A DNA stretch of 64,000 bases from Fibrobacter succinogenes. Lineage in GTDB: Bacteria; Fibrobacterota; Fibrobacteria; Fibrobacterales; Fibrobacteraceae. Of the stretch, positions 2,412-45,266 are shown piece after piece. Position 1 is the stretch's first letter. Each line of letters starts with the position of its first letter. The stretch lies in the NCBI GenBank assembly GCA_902756345.1, contig CACVQR010000004.1, positions 248,001-312,000 on the forward strand. The letters are read 5' to 3'. The position numbers were made by a program, and so were the translations under genes. The notes below the pieces were generated by a model. That model was given only the letters and a program-made list of their open reading frames with translations, was not told the DNA's origin and did not search any database.

Positions 2412-2496
2412 ATTCAGATTTCAGAGTTCGGAATTCGGGAAAAATAAAAGTTACGCACCAGTTTCCAATTCCGAAATCCGAATTTCTAATTCCGAA
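2412..2496. repeat. Inverted degenerate word repeat (family C, ATTCAGATTTCGGAATT type)
   Basis: Between the converging stops, a left block built from AATTCAGATTTCAG and TTCGGAATTC faces a right block built from AATTCCGAAATCCGAATT. Together they form an imperfect long inverted repeat around an AT-rich centre. The same words recur at 47919-47979 and 54987-55010. It may act as a bidirectional terminator, but the symmetry is not a clean GC stem with a T-run. Confidence 0.7.
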
Positions 2497-3084
2497 TTAC
2501 AACACGCCCTTGCTGCTGGGGATACCTTTCACATTCCTGCTCGGGGCAATCGCCATCGCCACAGCGCGGGCAAAAGCCTTGAAGATCGACTCAAGGCAAT
2601 GATGGTTGTCGTTGCCGTAGAACAGTTCCACATGCAGGTTCATGCGGGCATTTTCGCACAGACTCTTGAAGAAATGTTCAAACATGCTAGCTTCGATACC
2701 GCCAGCCATGGCAGCCGGGAGCTTCACGTTCCACACAAAACCAATGCGGTTGCTAAAGTCAATGCACACGCGGCTCAAAGCCTCGTCCATCGGGACAAAG
2801 TAGAATCCATAGCGTTCGATTCCCTTCTTGTCGCCAAGGCATTCCACCAAGGCCTGACCAAGCACAATCGCAATGTCTTCCATGCTATGGTGCATATCGA
2901 CATGGACATCACCATTGCAAGTCAAATCCAGATGGATTCCTCCATGGATTTGGAACAAATTAAGCATGTGATCCAAGAAGCCGTTTCCGGAATTGATAGA
3001 ACCCGGAGTGGAATCATCCAAGTTGAGCGACAAGGCGATATCTGTTTCGCCGGTCTTTCGTGTGAGAGACGTGCTACGCATCAT
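2497..3084 (-). CDS. hisB: Imidazoleglycerol-phosphate dehydratase
   Basis: This enzyme of histidine synthesis dehydrates imidazoleglycerol phosphate to imidazoleacetol phosphate in the cytoplasm. The 195-residue protein has the usual monofunctional HisB length. It carries the metal-binding landmarks GNGFLDHMLNLF, HHSMEDIAI and DNHHCLESIFKAF in order, with no N-terminal phosphatase domain. Two tandem ATGs occur, and GAGG upstream suits the first. It is the last gene of an lptD-maf-rodZ-like-hisB run and begins six bases after the RodZ-like stop. hisF lies far away at 32.2 kb, so his genes are scattered here. Confidence 0.97.
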   Translation of the reverse strand: MMRSTSLTRKTGETDIALSLNLDDSTPGSINSGNGFLDHMLNLFQIHGGIHLDLTCNGDVHVDMHHSMEDIAIVLGQALVECLGDKKGIERYGFYFVPMDEALSRVCIDFSNRIGFVWNVKLPAAMAGGIEASMFEHFFKSLCENARMNLHVELFYGNDNHHCLESIFKAFARAVAMAIAPSRNVKGIPSSKGVL

Positions 3085-8184: not shown

Positions 8185-9300
8185 CTATTCGAACATGGTG
8201 CCGTCTTCTTCGTCTGCGGCGCCATCGTCGTAATCTTCGATCGATTTGCCGTTGCCAGGCACAATAATCAGGCCTAGCGTCACCGGGTCACCCTTCATGT
8301 TCAGGTAGGCTTCCAGCCACAAATTCGTCGAAAGGCGCAGCAGGCGAAGGTCGAGCATGGTGCCGCCCTTGTGAATGCTTTTCGGATTCCTGTTGAAGAA
8401 CAGGAACTTTTTATTGATATATTCGAAGCGGTCCTGGTCGTAGTTGATGGACCATTCGGAATTGCCGTCGTTTTCTTGGCGGTAGGTGCAACGGTCGTTA
8501 TCGATGTCGCATTCAAAGCTTGCACTTTCATGGTAACGTTTGTTCCATTCGCGGCTAAAGGCGCAGCTCTGTACGCGGCCAGCACCATTGCGCTTTTTAT
8601 TCAGCTGGTCGTTAATGACCACAAAGTCCATTTTCTGATTCTTGACCTGCTTGTAGACATCCATCAAAATGATGTACGCTTCAATATTGTTGGGGCATTT
8701 ACCCGTCAGGTTCACGTCTTCGTGCGCCTTCAAGAGCGTCTGCTGCATGTCAATATCAATAGCATCGGGAATTTCACTTTCCTTGATTTTATCGAGTACC
8801 TTCTTGGGCGGAACAAAGACAACCTTGTCGCCCTTCTTGATGGCATAACCCAACTGATCACGCACGTAGTCCAGGCACTGCTGCACGTGAATGTGCACCG
8901 TATTGGAACCGCCAGACACGAAGTCCACGCCAATCCGCACATTCCATTCGCCCGCGGTGCTGCCCGCGTTCTTGTCGATTTCGCAGAAGGGATCTTCGCG
9001 AATACCGTCAATAAATATCACTTTCGCATTGAGCTTGGTCACCACCGATTCTTCTTTGTCCAAGGCTCCACCCAAGCTCCAGAAATTCGGATTCAAGCGC
9101 AACACTTCGGCAAAGGCCTTGTCGCCATCGAGGGCCGGCAACAAAGAATCGTTGCGGGCATTCTTTTCTTTCAAAAGTTCAGAATACTCCGTCGTAACGT
9201 TCATATTGGTAAAACCGTTACGCTTTGCCGGTTCAGGCATAGCCAGCGCAAAGGATACCGCCAAAAGGCAAATCAAGGCAAACAGAGAAATCTTTTTCAT
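8185..9300 (-). CDS. Exported protein of unknown function
   Basis: The 371-residue product begins MKKISLFALICLLAVSFALA, a clear signal peptide with cleavage likely before MPEP. The mature part has scattered cysteines (CEID, CLDY, GKCPNN, QSCAF, FECDIDNDRC) that could form disulfides, and an acidic end (DDGAADEEDGTMFE). A segment around GSNTVHIHVQQCLDYVRDQLGYAIKKGDKVVFVPPKK is conserved-looking, but I do not recognise a family. An in-frame ATG two codons upstream (9306) is possible; neither start has a convincing Shine-Dalgarno. Upstream lies the family B repeat. Fibrobacter-specific envelope protein is my best guess. Confidence 0.7.
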   Translation of the reverse strand: MKKISLFALICLLAVSFALAMPEPAKRNGFTNMNVTTEYSELLKEKNARNDSLLPALDGDKAFAEVLRLNPNFWSLGGALDKEESVVTKLNAKVIFIDGIREDPFCEIDKNAGSTAGEWNVRIGVDFVSGGSNTVHIHVQQCLDYVRDQLGYAIKKGDKVVFVPPKKVLDKIKESEIPDAIDIDMQQTLLKAHEDVNLTGKCPNNIEAYIILMDVYKQVKNQKMDFVVINDQLNKKRNGAGRVQSCAFSREWNKRYHESASFECDIDNDRCTYRQENDGNSEWSINYDQDRFEYINKKFLFFNRNPKSIHKGGTMLDLRLLRLSTNLWLEAYLNMKGDPVTLGLIIVPGNGKSIEDYDDGAADEEDGTMFE

Positions 9301-9317
9301 ACGCATATAAAATACAA

Positions 9318-9416
9318 AAATTAGTTAGAAGAACTTAGTTGGTAGAACTTAGAGATTTCATCCTAAGCCTTAAACTCTAAGTTCTAAGCTCAAAGATCTA
9401 AGTTCTAATATATGCG
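9318..9416. repeat. Degenerate word repeat (family B, TTAGAACTTAGA type) reaching into a coding end
   Basis: On the minus strand the words TTAGAACTTAGA, GAGCTTAGAACTTAGAG and AAGGCTTAGG are followed by the opposite-sense words TCTAAGTTCTA, CTAAGTTCTTCTAACTAA. This makes an imperfect inverted repeat of about 100 bases. Its first part (9370-9416) lies inside the HAD-family gene and encodes its last 14 or so residues plus the stop. Confidence 0.8.
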
Positions 9417-10038
9417 GAATATGGTAATCCACATAGGGAGCGCTATCGGTGGTCGGATTCACGAAAACCGTAGTCCAGCCGCGGCGGTGCGCAGGTTCCA
9501 GGTTGCGAAGACCATCATCCAGCAACACAATGTCGCGTTTGTTCTCAGGCATTTCTAACCCCATGGTAGGGAGCTTTTGCGCAAGCCACTTTTCCATTTT
9601 GTCGTAAGCACTTTCGTGGGGTTTTCCTTCCCAGCCGAGTAACTTCAAGTCAAACACGCCGTCAATCGCCGAATCAATCCCCATGTGCAACATGCCCGCC
9701 TCACTCCAGTCGTGGCGGCCATTGGTAAATACAAAATGCGGACCCTCCAGGCTTTTCAACAGGGCCAGTTTTTCAGGAGCCTTCTTGGGGTAAATCAAGT
9801 ATTCCGGCTCATGGATGAAGTCGAAAAATTCGTCGGGATCGGTACCGTGCATCGCCATCAGCCCAGCAAGCGTCGTTCCGAACCGTTCCAGGTAATCGGT
9901 ACGCACCTTATGGGCCATTTCAAAATCGCAGCCGACCGTTTTTTGCACAAACAGTGAAATGCGGTGGTCCAGGGAATTCAGCACGCACCGTTCTTCGGCT
10001 CCGTATAAGGTCAAGTCGTAGTCGAACAACCAAACCAT
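9370..10038 (-). CDS. HAD-superfamily pyrimidine 5'-nucleotidase-like hydrolase
   Basis: The 222-residue protein has the HAD motifs in order: motif I LFDYDLTLY (nucleophile Asp6, acid Asp8), motif II FTNGRHDWSE, a lysine in GKPHESAY, and motif IV LLDDGLRNLEPAHRRGWTTVFV. The arrangement matches SDT1/pyrimidine 5'-nucleotidase-type HAD enzymes, which dephosphorylate nucleoside monophosphates; the true substrate cannot be read from sequence. It starts six bases after dgt, so nucleotide metabolism is a consistent context. The C-terminal ILELRSLSLELRV is encoded by the family B repeat, suggesting that the original end of the gene was replaced or extended by the repeat. Confidence 0.85.
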   Translation of the reverse strand: MVWLFDYDLTLYGAEERCVLNSLDHRISLFVQKTVGCDFEMAHKVRTDYLERFGTTLAGLMAMHGTDPDEFFDFIHEPEYLIYPKKAPEKLALLKSLEGPHFVFTNGRHDWSEAGMLHMGIDSAIDGVFDLKLLGWEGKPHESAYDKMEKWLAQKLPTMGLEMPENKRDIVLLDDGLRNLEPAHRRGWTTVFVNPTTDSAPYVDYHIPHILELRSLSLELRV

Positions 10039-11364: not shown

Positions 11365-11418
11365 GAAAAAAGAAGTAGACAGTAGGAAGTAGGAAGTAGA
11401 CTGTGGGCAGTAGGCAGA
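11365..11418. repeat. Degenerate word repeat (family D, CTACTTCCTACTG type) upstream of dgt
   Basis: In the sense of dgt this spacer is a run of CTGCCTACTGCC, CAGTCTACTTCC, TACTTCC and TACTGTCTACTTC words ending 12-20 bases before the ATG. Positions 11372-11392 are the exact reverse complement of 15843-15863, upstream of ung. Confidence 0.8.
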
Positions 11419-42602: not shown

Positions 42603-43286
42603 ATGCACACTCTCTATATTGTAGCAACCCCCATCGGGAACATGGAAGACATCACCTACCGGGCTGTGCGGACATTAAAGGAAGTTCCGCTGGTGCTTGC
42701 CGAAGACACACGCCACACGCGAGTGCTCTTTGACAATTACGGCATCAACACGCCCATGGAAGCCTACCACGACTTCAATAAAGAGAAGGTGACCCCCAAG
42801 TACGTAGAATTCCTGAAAAACGAAGGCGATATCGCCCTAGTAAGCGATGCAGGCACCCCCGGAGTCGCAGACCCGGCTTTCAACCTAGTTCGCGAGTGCG
42901 TCCGCGAAGGAATCGATGTCCGCGCCATCCCTGGCCCTTGCGCCATGATTACCGCACTTGTTTCAAGCGGCATGCCTACGGACCATTTTTGCTTTCAATA
43001 CTTTTCGCCCAAAAAGAGCGCCCAACGCATTCATCTGCTTGAAAAGCTAAAAGACGAAGAAGCGACCCAGATTTTCTACGCAAGCCCGCACAACATCGAC
43101 AAGTTCGTCGAAGAAATCGGCCAAGTCTTTGGCGAAATCAAGATTGCACTGATGCGTGAACTCACCAAGAAATTCGAAGAACACCTGATTGGCACTCCAT
43201 CCGAAATCACGGCACACTTCAAGGCTCACCCGCCCAAAGGCGAATTCGTACTGATTTTCAATCCCCAAGACAAGAGTGGACTGTAG
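42603..43286 (+). CDS. rsmI: 16S rRNA (cytidine(1402)-2'-O)-methyltransferase
   Basis: RsmI adds the 2'-O-methyl group to C1402 in the ribosomal P site. The 227-residue protein has the tetrapyrrole-methylase fold motifs LYIVATPIGNMEDITYRAVRTL, LAEDTRHTRVLF, LVSDAGTPGVADPAFNLVREC, IPGPCAMITALVSSGMPTDHFCF and ALMRELTKKFEEHLIGTP. It is slightly shorter than the E. coli enzyme, lacking its C-terminal extension. The upstream 52 bases contain TAACTCAGAACTATTAACTAA words related to family B repeats. Confidence 0.97.
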   Translation: MHTLYIVATPIGNMEDITYRAVRTLKEVPLVLAEDTRHTRVLFDNYGINTPMEAYHDFNKEKVTPKYVEFLKNEGDIALVSDAGTPGVADPAFNLVRECVREGIDVRAIPGPCAMITALVSSGMPTDHFCFQYFSPKKSAQRIHLLEKLKDEEATQIFYASPHNIDKFVEEIGQVFGEIKIALMRELTKKFEEHLIGTPSEITAHFKAHPPKGEFVLIFNPQDKSGL

Positions 43287-43334: not shown

Positions 43335-45266
43335 ATGTTGAATAAGATTAAAACTCTCCCGAAGATTTTCTGGATTTACGTAGCGGTTCTTTTTATTGCA
43401 GAAGTGATTGTTTTTTCGCTGCGTCCCGACAAACCGGGTCTTTACACGCAGGCTTTGCAAGTACTCCCCCTGGCAGTAACGATTCCGTTTCTGTTTTTCA
43501 AAGACACCCGAAAAAATTTCAAACGCACGCTTTTCACGTTCGCAATCGTTTCTTTTGCATTCCTTGCGCTTGACTACAACATTGGCGACTTGAATAAAAT
43601 CGGACACGCCGGTCTGATTCAGATTATCCTGACGGCATGCCCCATCGGCATTTTCTGGATTACTCTTTTTGTCCGTTGGAATTACAGACATATCAAAACT
43701 CGCGAATCGCGCACGCCCTTATTTCTTTCCTGTTTTGCATGGGGCCTGTTCGCACTCGCCTACCCACCCATGCCCTTGGGCCCAGCAGCTTTACTGTTGC
43801 TTGTTCCATGGTTCATCGTCCTTAACCGATTCACCCGCGGTCAAGCCATGTTCGCCACCTTCTGGTCGGGCATGCTTTACAACACCATCAACTACTACTG
43901 GATTTACAACGTCATGCACGTGGAGACTGCTCCTTCGGGGCTGATTCTCCTCGGACTCTTTTTGCTGATAGCCTTCTTTAGCGCCTACAACACATTAGCC
44001 GGATTCGTGTACACGCTTGCAAAAGAAGCCCCAGCCAAAATCCGCATCGTATTGCTGATACTTTTCCCGATCTTTTACGCAGGCCTTGAAATGACCCGCA
44101 CCTATGGCGACTTCGCCTTCCCGTGGAGCCACTTGGGCTATGTTTTCGGTAACAGCCTTGAACTTTTGCAGATGCTCCCCTATATCGGAATTTTTGGCTA
44201 CACGATTTTGGTCATCGCTTCGAACCAAGCCGTAGCCCAGACACTTTGCAAAGTTCAAGACATCAAAAAAGCAATCCCTGTTCTAGCCGTCCCCCTTTCC
44301 ATTTTTGTAGTGTTACTCATTCAAGGCAGTATCGTCTTGTCTAAAACCGAAGCCCAACCGTTCTACAATGCAGACGCCGAAGGCAACCCCTCTATCGCCC
44401 TTGTACAACCAAGCATTGCACAGGGTGCCAAATGGAGCAAGGAACGTTTCGATAACATTGTCAACAAGACTCTCGGCATGGTCAACGACAGCATTAAGAA
44501 ACATGCTGACCTTATCGTGCTTGCCGAAACCGCAATCCCCGACCACATTCGCAGGCAGCCCGGCATCATTGAACGCCTGCACGAAGTCGCAGACAGCAAG
44601 AACTCTCAACTTTTAGTAGGCGCACTCGACTACCGTCGCAATCCGCGCGGAAGCATCCGTAAATTCGATGTCTACAATGCCTCGTTCCTGTTCACTCCCG
44701 GCGATTCTCACTTCCCGAAGCGCTACATCAAAAAGCACCTGGTGCCTTTTAGCGAACGAATTCCGTTTGACGAAATCTTCCCGATTTTAAACTATGTGGA
44801 TCTTGGCGAAGGAGACTTTGTCGCCGGTAAAGAAACCCCCGTCTACCAGCCGTTCCTGTGGACACCCTACATTTGCTACGACGCCATTTTTGGTGACCTG
44901 GTGCGCGAAGCGATCCGCGAAGGATCCCGCCTCATGGTCAACATTACCAACGACGGCTGGTTCGGCCGGAGCACCGCCCCTTACCAGCACCTGAACTTGA
45001 TCCGTTACCGCGCCATCGAAAACGGCATGCCGGTGGCACGCCTCGCCAACAGCGGTGTTTCCGCATTCATCGACCAGTACGGCCACTACGACGGCAATAC
45101 CGAAATATTCACCGATCGCGTTGTACAAAGAAAAGTGCCGCTCAAGACCCGCGACACTCTATACAGCCGTATTGGCGACTTTGTTGAAATGTTCTTGCTG
45201 TGCTTTTTCGCAGCCTACCTGATCGCAACGCTTTTGCTCTCTTTTATCAACCGCAAACGCGGCTAG
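43335..45266 (+). CDS. lnt: Apolipoprotein N-acyltransferase
   Basis: Lnt N-acylates the diacylglyceryl-cysteine of lipoproteins in the inner membrane. The 643-residue protein has about seven or eight N-terminal membrane helices and a nitrilase-type periplasmic domain with the catalytic triad Glu398 (LAETAIPDH), Lys466 (RYIKKHLVPFSE) and Cys514 (ICYDAIFGD). The lipid-facing loop NDGWFGRSTAPYQH follows, and a last helix closes the chain. It is longer than E. coli Lnt by an extra N-terminal membrane block (about residues 1-100). The many lipoproteins in this window fit its presence. The ATG directly follows a word repeat. Confidence 0.96.
   Translation: MLNKIKTLPKIFWIYVAVLFIAEVIVFSLRPDKPGLYTQALQVLPLAVTIPFLFFKDTRKNFKRTLFTFAIVSFAFLALDYNIGDLNKIGHAGLIQIILTACPIGIFWITLFVRWNYRHIKTRESRTPLFLSCFAWGLFALAYPPMPLGPAALLLLVPWFIVLNRFTRGQAMFATFWSGMLYNTINYYWIYNVMHVETAPSGLILLGLFLLIAFFSAYNTLAGFVYTLAKEAPAKIRIVLLILFPIFYAGLEMTRTYGDFAFPWSHLGYVFGNSLELLQMLPYIGIFGYTILVIASNQAVAQTLCKVQDIKKAIPVLAVPLSIFVVLLIQGSIVLSKTEAQPFYNADAEGNPSIALVQPSIAQGAKWSKERFDNIVNKTLGMVNDSIKKHADLIVLAETAIPDHIRRQPGIIERLHEVADSKNSQLLVGALDYRRNPRGSIRKFDVYNASFLFTPGDSHFPKRYIKKHLVPFSERIPFDEIFPILNYVDLGEGDFVAGKETPVYQPFLWTPYICYDAIFGDLVREAIREGSRLMVNITNDGWFGRSTAPYQHLNLIRYRAIENGMPVARLANSGVSAFIDQYGHYDGNTEIFTDRVVQRKVPLKTRDTLYSRIGDFVEMFLLCFFAAYLIATLLLSFINRKRG

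Follow-up and report, generated by a model that had tools for sequence, protein, structure and literature searches.

A dispersed hairpin of seven-base units has replaced the end of a HAD nucleotidase gene in a Fibrobacter succinogenes genome

The 94-bp repeat at positions 9318-9411 is most probably a lineage-specific insertion with replacement, in which one copy of a dispersed, polar family of hairpins built from 7-base units (family B) displaced the last nine codons and the stop codon of a HAD gene. Positions refer to the window, the whole 64,000-nucleotide stretch analysed here (G000:C4:248001-312000), which belongs to a genome (G000) of 3.36 Mb in 27 contigs. The closest relative, G030, still has the old gene end, and in G000 this end has been replaced by the hairpin. 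The HAD gene thereby shows, before and after, how a repeat has written the end of a protein. Family B has many copies in G000 but almost none in the sister genome G030, and it is one of several Fibrobacter heptad families with very fast turnover.

The repeat lies between the minus-strand genes 9370-10038 and 8185-9306 and extends 42 bases into the HAD ORF. A preliminary description of this DNA had it running from 9318 to 9416 into the HAD gene and supplying both the C-terminus and the stop codon; the span is confirmed to within 5 bases, and the tail is indeed ILELRSLSLELRV followed by TAA. The element is palindromic, with heptad arms facing each other across a loop, and is therefore not a simple direct array. 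Its 5' arm (9323-9353) has 2 mismatches to the 30-mer consensus, and the HAD stop codon at 9370-9372 is located in the loop, not in a TTAGAAC unit. The repeat is far beyond chance, since TTAGAACTTAGA occurs 91 times in the genome versus 0 for the reversed control, and since 400 kb of contig C4 contain 51 period-7 segments (score of at least 12) versus none at lags of 4, 5, 8, 10, 11, and 13 and 2-3 at lags of 6, 9, and 12. The window copy folds at -23.9 kcal/mol, with z = -2.40 against shuffles.

Table 1. Coordinates of the HAD gene end, its hairpin, and other heptad elements in the window
Feature	Position	Strand	Remark
TTCGGAA-family hairpin, between convergent genes, touching both gene ends	2413..2498	.	
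Remnant of the older spacer, as in G030, before minus-strand gene 8185-9306	9307..9317	-	
Whole family-B heptad hairpin	9318..9411	+	bounds set against the G030 empty site
5' arm, two 14-mers, consensus (AGTTGGYAGARCTT)x2 AGA	9323..9353	+	
Loop, differing in length and sequence among copies; contains the HAD stop codon	9354..9374	+	
3' arm, TCTAAGY heptads including the variant unit GCTCAAA	9375..9408	+	codons read from sequence
HAD ORF end supplied by the element: 13 codons ILELRSLSLELRV, then stop TAA, replacing the older LMNLADLKL*	9370..9411	-	
HAD gene, pyrimidine 5'-nucleotidase-like	9370..10038	-	TIGR01993 match
AGTAGRM-family array; missing in G003	11372..11417	.	
ATGTGRR-family array, spacer filled from stop codon to start codon	43286..43337	.	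1 bp in G003

About 40 dispersed relatives of the element are present in G000. Many are near full length at 70-79% identity, the best full-length ones are 77-79% identical, and no near-identical copy is found among them. Thirty copies fit one plan, which consists of AGTTGGTAGARCTTAGTTGGTAGARCTTAGA, a loop of variable length, and TCTAAGY units. The 5' arm of two 14-mers is present in 27 of these 30 aligned copies; in the remaining three, ACGCTTCGCTTG or a similar sequence replaces TTGG and the standard 5' arm is missing. The loop and the 3' arm are variable, with the 3' arm ranging from about 4 to about 17 units and the longest array reaching 124 bases. As RNA, family B folds into a hairpin whose stems are 10-12 pairs long and whose internal loops are 4 x 4. 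Covariation between the arms is absent at both arm positions that vary A/G (R/Y), and nothing therefore shows that the hairpin itself is under selection. At L176, L182, L191, and L194, a GC-rich mini-hairpin (such as GCGGCTTCGCCGC) adjoins the family-B 5' arm.

The HAD protein matches TIGR01993 over residues 2-193 with 102.9 bits, under the curated cut-off of 142.9, and residues 4-214 match the solved chain of a xanthosine monophosphate phosphatase. The altered tail comprises residues 210-222, which lie entirely past the part matched by TIGR01993 and mostly outside both the profile and the structure matches. Because 7 and 3 have no common factor, any 21 bases of repeat place the stop codon of the unit (TAG/TAA) in each of the three frames, and invasion would normally extend an ORF by only a few residues. 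The HAD protein gains 13 residues because one variant unit lifts this stop: the third repeat unit reads TTTGAGC on the gene strand (GCTCAAA on the other) instead of TTAGARC, which removes the in-frame stop codon from the HAD frame. A TTAG at this unit would end the frame five repeat codons in.

The HAD protein of G030 is 95.9% identical to that of G000, and the flanking DNA is 99% and 96% identical. In G030 the gene ends in HIPHLMNLADLKL and TAA (LMNLADLKL*), with 34 bp where G000 has 94. The spacer TTTTTTGTATTTTATATGCG directly follows the G030 stop codon, and G000 has the same spacer, one T shorter, after the element. A LMNLADLKL or LMDLADLKI tail with a similar short spacer is also found at L034/L061, L038, and L093, which makes the empty state the older one. 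The orthologue comparison thus bears out the earlier proposal that a repeat had invaded the 3' end of the gene, with an empty end in G030 and the same or nearly identical ends at these other loci. Distant orthologues with the same residues and no repeat were not encountered, as the tail ILELRSLSLELRV is found in none of the other 63 orthologue loci (64 with the window, from two sets of 30 and 34 whose genomes overlap). Among the 60 loci with a findable pre-tail motif, 40 different tails occur, and this part of the protein is thus free to vary within the genus.

By eye, the same spacer holds an ATGTG-type heptad hairpin in G003 and other heptad words at L050/L083, L052, and L056. At L063 and L064, the HAD stop codon is followed by a different dispersed repeat of spacers, containing TCATCCTGAGC and GTCGAAGGATCT, which is also present in G030 at the counterparts of the G000 heptad elements #23 and #34. 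The gene downstream of HAD (8185-9306, 373 aa) has no Pfam or NCBIfam match, and its start region is recognisable beside HAD in many Fibrobacter loci.

An alternative is that homologous recombination brought in a gene end already invaded in some other Fibrobacter strain, with the insertion itself being older and made elsewhere. Identity between G000 and G030 is strongly uneven along this region (78-96%), and more distant species, G074 and G001 among them, are rich in family B; both observations are consistent with import. However, HAD flanks this close to those of G030 leave little room for an imported tract, and no other orthologue locus offers the same tail, so import is an unlikely source of the present gene end.

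Insertion with replacement may have occurred a second time at this gene end. In L062, which is Fibrobacter succinogenes isolate RUG10650, the HAD protein ends in LLEIKSLSKLYQLSSSN. A family-B profile of 26 copies, with the window's own left out, gives 59.6 bits for the window and 15.8 bits (E 3.6e-4) for L062; no shuffled or coding control exceeds 2.8 bits, and G030-type HAD end regions do not match the profile. In the tree, L062 groups with L093, L038, and others without an element, which requires two changes. Based on the profile match and this tree, L062 is best read as an apparently second, independent, and decayed family-B insertion that now lies wholly inside the ORF. The L062 tail is the nearest to that of the window and is itself coded by a decayed family-B arm, and the L062 genome contains only one 5' arm, with 3 mismatches. 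L062 seemingly illustrates the later fate of such ends, in which the repeat decays into ordinary-looking coding sequence.

Comparison with related genomes extends to the 63 elements detected on C4; the fetched sequence of G030 allowed 24 of them to be placed, and that of G003 allowed 22. The 36 comparisons kept, which are limited to elements that have a named family and lie outside called genes, comprise 3 shared elements, 2 of the same family but diverged, and 31 that are absent or otherwise replaced. The same family is found at the site in none of the six comparisons for family B (five elements, in G030 or G003). Among spacers free of elements, 80% or more of the length aligned in 27/29 cases for G030 and 42/44 for G003, where the ratios cover those of the 126 examined spacers with both flanks found. 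By eye, the G030 counterparts of elements #43 and #44 are not family B, and the G003 counterpart of element #57 carries the AGACGAR family. The family-A element #28 is common to G000 and G030 and differs by exactly 14 bp (54 vs 40). Target-site duplication was not seen at 14 clean junctions, where shared bases average 1.36 against 0.88 in shuffled sequence with a maximum of 5. The preliminary description had suggested active spread or growth of the repeat at gene ends. Spread in this lineage is supported by the string TTAGAACTTAGAAC, with 45 exact sites in G000 and 0 in G030, together with the six family-B site comparisons. The variable 3' arm and the 14-bp difference at an element of another family speak for growth in 7-base steps.

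Whole hairpins of about 90 bp would be copied into new spacers without target-site duplication; the most likely candidate route is template switching during replication from one dispersed copy to another. Copying of whole hairpins is something we infer rather than see, because G000 has no near-identical donor copy. After copying, slippage would lengthen or shorten the 3' arm in 7-base steps. Gene ends would tolerate such insertions, and selection would keep copies only where the harm is small.

Growth could instead be purely local, with a chance TTAGAAC-like stretch expanded by slippage, a 7-base preference arising from the polymerase, and no copying between sites. The period of exactly 7 in every family, the variable unit number of the 3' arm, and the 14-bp step at element #28 are in keeping with this reading, and a polymerase footprint of 7 nt is attributed to Mrazek 2007 in the introduction of PMC4679880. 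Slippage alone, however, does not account for one and the same 30-base 5' arm, paired with a 3' arm of opposite direction, at dozens of unlinked places across several species, and the ancestral HAD tail, as represented by the G030-type regions, has no similarity to family B. Growth without copying is therefore already disfavoured and has a low probability.

The hairpin at the HAD end belongs to a multi-family system in Fibrobacter. Its words include AGTAGRM (A), TTAGAAC (B), ATGTGRR (C), TTCGGAA (D), GTGGTTA (E), and GACGARA (F), among others. Exact TTAGAACTTAGAAC sites occur in 22/61 genomes, with 90 in G074, 38 in G062, 33 in G001, and 12 in G003; G000, with 45 sites, and G030, with 0, differ by 0.014 changes per column. 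AGTAGRMAGTAGRM occurs in 53/61 genomes (G000 319, G030 326, G003 15), the ATGTG word in 38/61, and the GTGGTTA word in 48/61. The family-B 5' arm (at most 3 mismatches) is present in 21/61 genomes, with 30 in G000 and 3 in G030; these 3 diverged arms mean that family B was not wholly new. Reversed-pattern controls are near zero, with G009 and G011 as the main exceptions for the AGTAGRMAGTAGRM count. The sister species G005 and G010 contain 27 and 242 family-A sites, respectively.

Samples of 100 kb each from G036 and G069 contain no period-7 segment of score 11 or higher, which makes them useful as array-free controls. G039, which belongs to the same class but a different family, also contains heptad arrays, with words of its own and opposed arms. 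At its loci L236-L240, the words are GTAGACG/GTAGTAG, ATGAATG, and AGTGGATA, with 15 segments per 100 kb. Within the window, the ATGTGRR-family array takes up all the space between the stop of gene 42603-43286 and the start of gene 43335-45266, and it may supply that start codon, since G003 has a 1-bp gap and a different N-terminus here. At L104 13439-13566 (G000:C4:193439-193566), GACGAR- and TTCGGAA-type heptads lie inside the called gene C4:193200-194298, in a region whose length exceeds that of its G030 counterpart by 33 bp, which is divisible by three.

Dispersed, palindromic, and extragenic elements with a patchy distribution across genomes also resemble REP-like or MITE-like elements moved by a transposase of RAYT/Y1 or DDE type. 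A Y1 transposase is present in 20/61 congeners, but Y1_Tnp has no match in G000, G030, G003, or G074, and RAYT mobilisation was rejected on the basis of the G000 result. Target-site duplication is absent, and the alignment shows no fixed terminal tag beyond the stem, so movement by a transposase is improbable. A reverse-transcription origin as a retron or group II intron product was rejected, as RVT_1 (reverse transcriptase) has no match in G000, G030, or G003. SbcD cuts hairpins; palindrome tolerance through its loss was rejected, since SbcD scores above the cut-off in 56/61 genomes including G000.

On C4, 52 of the 63 detected elements, part of which are ordinary coding repeats, are in spacers, 10 are inside called genes, and 1 is at an edge. 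Elements often occupy the spacer from the stop codon to the promoter or start. An element edge lies at most 3 bases from the stop codon in 20/43 cases versus 26% with random placement in the same spacers, and at most 3 bases from the start codon in 4/51 versus 17%. The excess over random placement at stop codons in short spacers is moderate; stop-codon targeting was therefore rejected, and the excess is attributed to selection. Five of 43 ORF ends reach at least 6 bases into an element, with the 42 bases of HAD being the deepest. The stop codon itself often differs with the element, being TAA in the empty relative and TAG at #34, #35, #54, #55, and #58. A consistent orientation of family B to genes was rejected: of 30 copies examined, 25 have called genes on both flanks, and their tally is a mixed 9/6/6/4.

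A regulatory or terminator hairpin conserved by selection at gene ends, to which the better-than-shuffled fold and the stop-codon excess would lend themselves, is very unlikely given the gain and loss of elements between sister species, the lack of a terminator call at the element, the arms without R/Y covariation, the mixed family-B orientation, and the Fibrobacter samples without any elements. An intrinsic terminator with a GC-rich stem and T run was rejected, with none called at the element, and a known RNA family was rejected, with two chance-like matches far under gathering scores. No intron family, group I included, was found in window positions 9000-9700 (E up to 1).

Beyond the insertion at the HAD gene, a broader and more tentative possibility is that heptad hairpins are their own class of non-autonomous mobile DNA. 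A dedicated activity with a 7-base register might write or copy palindromic spacers, so that a Fibrobacter genome could acquire dozens to hundreds of hairpins with a new 'word' in a single speciation step, and proteins would come to end in such words. This proposal is doubtful at present.

Heptamer repeats in Fibrobacter were not found in openly accessible papers. Cyanobacterial STRR heptamers are short tandem heptamers with degenerate positions located in spacers. The Fibrobacter elements are like them by this description. With heptamer repeats of the TAACTGA/STRR kind they share exact 7-base tandem units that are mostly outside genes; direct repeats of one fixed heptamer were not found, as there are several degenerate families with opposed arms.

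The TAACTGA heptamers of Beggiatoaceae, some Cyanobacteria, and Bacteroidetes are, in the available text of PMC4679880, mostly intergenic and overlap stop codons at ORF ends (13 sets), with stops in all three frames and with changes limited to the ends of proteins; the frame argument given above for the HAD gene was made for these repeats too. Both systems have an exact 7-base unit, a mostly intergenic location, stop-codon overlap, stops in all frames, and confinement to protein ends. TAACTGA repeats, as that text presents them, are 2-6 direct copies of one heptamer, whereas Fibrobacter has several degenerate families, usually with opposed hairpin arms, and adds before-and-after sites in sister genomes.

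The P6b element of the Nostoc trnL group I intron is described in the available text of PMC4476775 as a stem of degenerate 7-base motifs (TDNGATT or NNTGAGT), in which motif classes are repeatedly swapped at the same place and copy number changes by one motif. A stem built of degenerate heptads is common to both, but the Nostoc stem resides within a group I intron, whereas the Fibrobacter elements are dispersed in spacers and gene ends. REP elements, as characterised in the available text of PMC3733652, are 20-40 bp long with an unpaired GTAG or CGTC tag, and the GTAG type is associated with a RAYT gene. Like REP elements, the Fibrobacter hairpins are dispersed extragenic palindromes with several families per genome; unlike them, they are about 50-190 bp long, are built of heptads, and occur in a genome without a Y1 transposase match. 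By eye, GTAG is present in every family-A unit and CGTC in the family-F reverse complement, in both cases inside the repeat and not as a tag.

The frequent unit of seven in bacterial tandem repeats is an old open question. Within a single genus, Fibrobacter combines array-rich sisters with species that lack arrays and with clean empty sites, which makes the origin of heptamers testable through gene content and isolate resequencing. Stop-codon heptamers in Beggiatoaceae (available text of PMC4679880) and heptad stems with word replacement in Nostoc (available text of PMC4476775) are already in print. Fibrobacter differs in uniting stop-overlapping spacer heptamers and heptad stems as one dispersed multi-family system, and in the before-and-after evidence from sister genomes.
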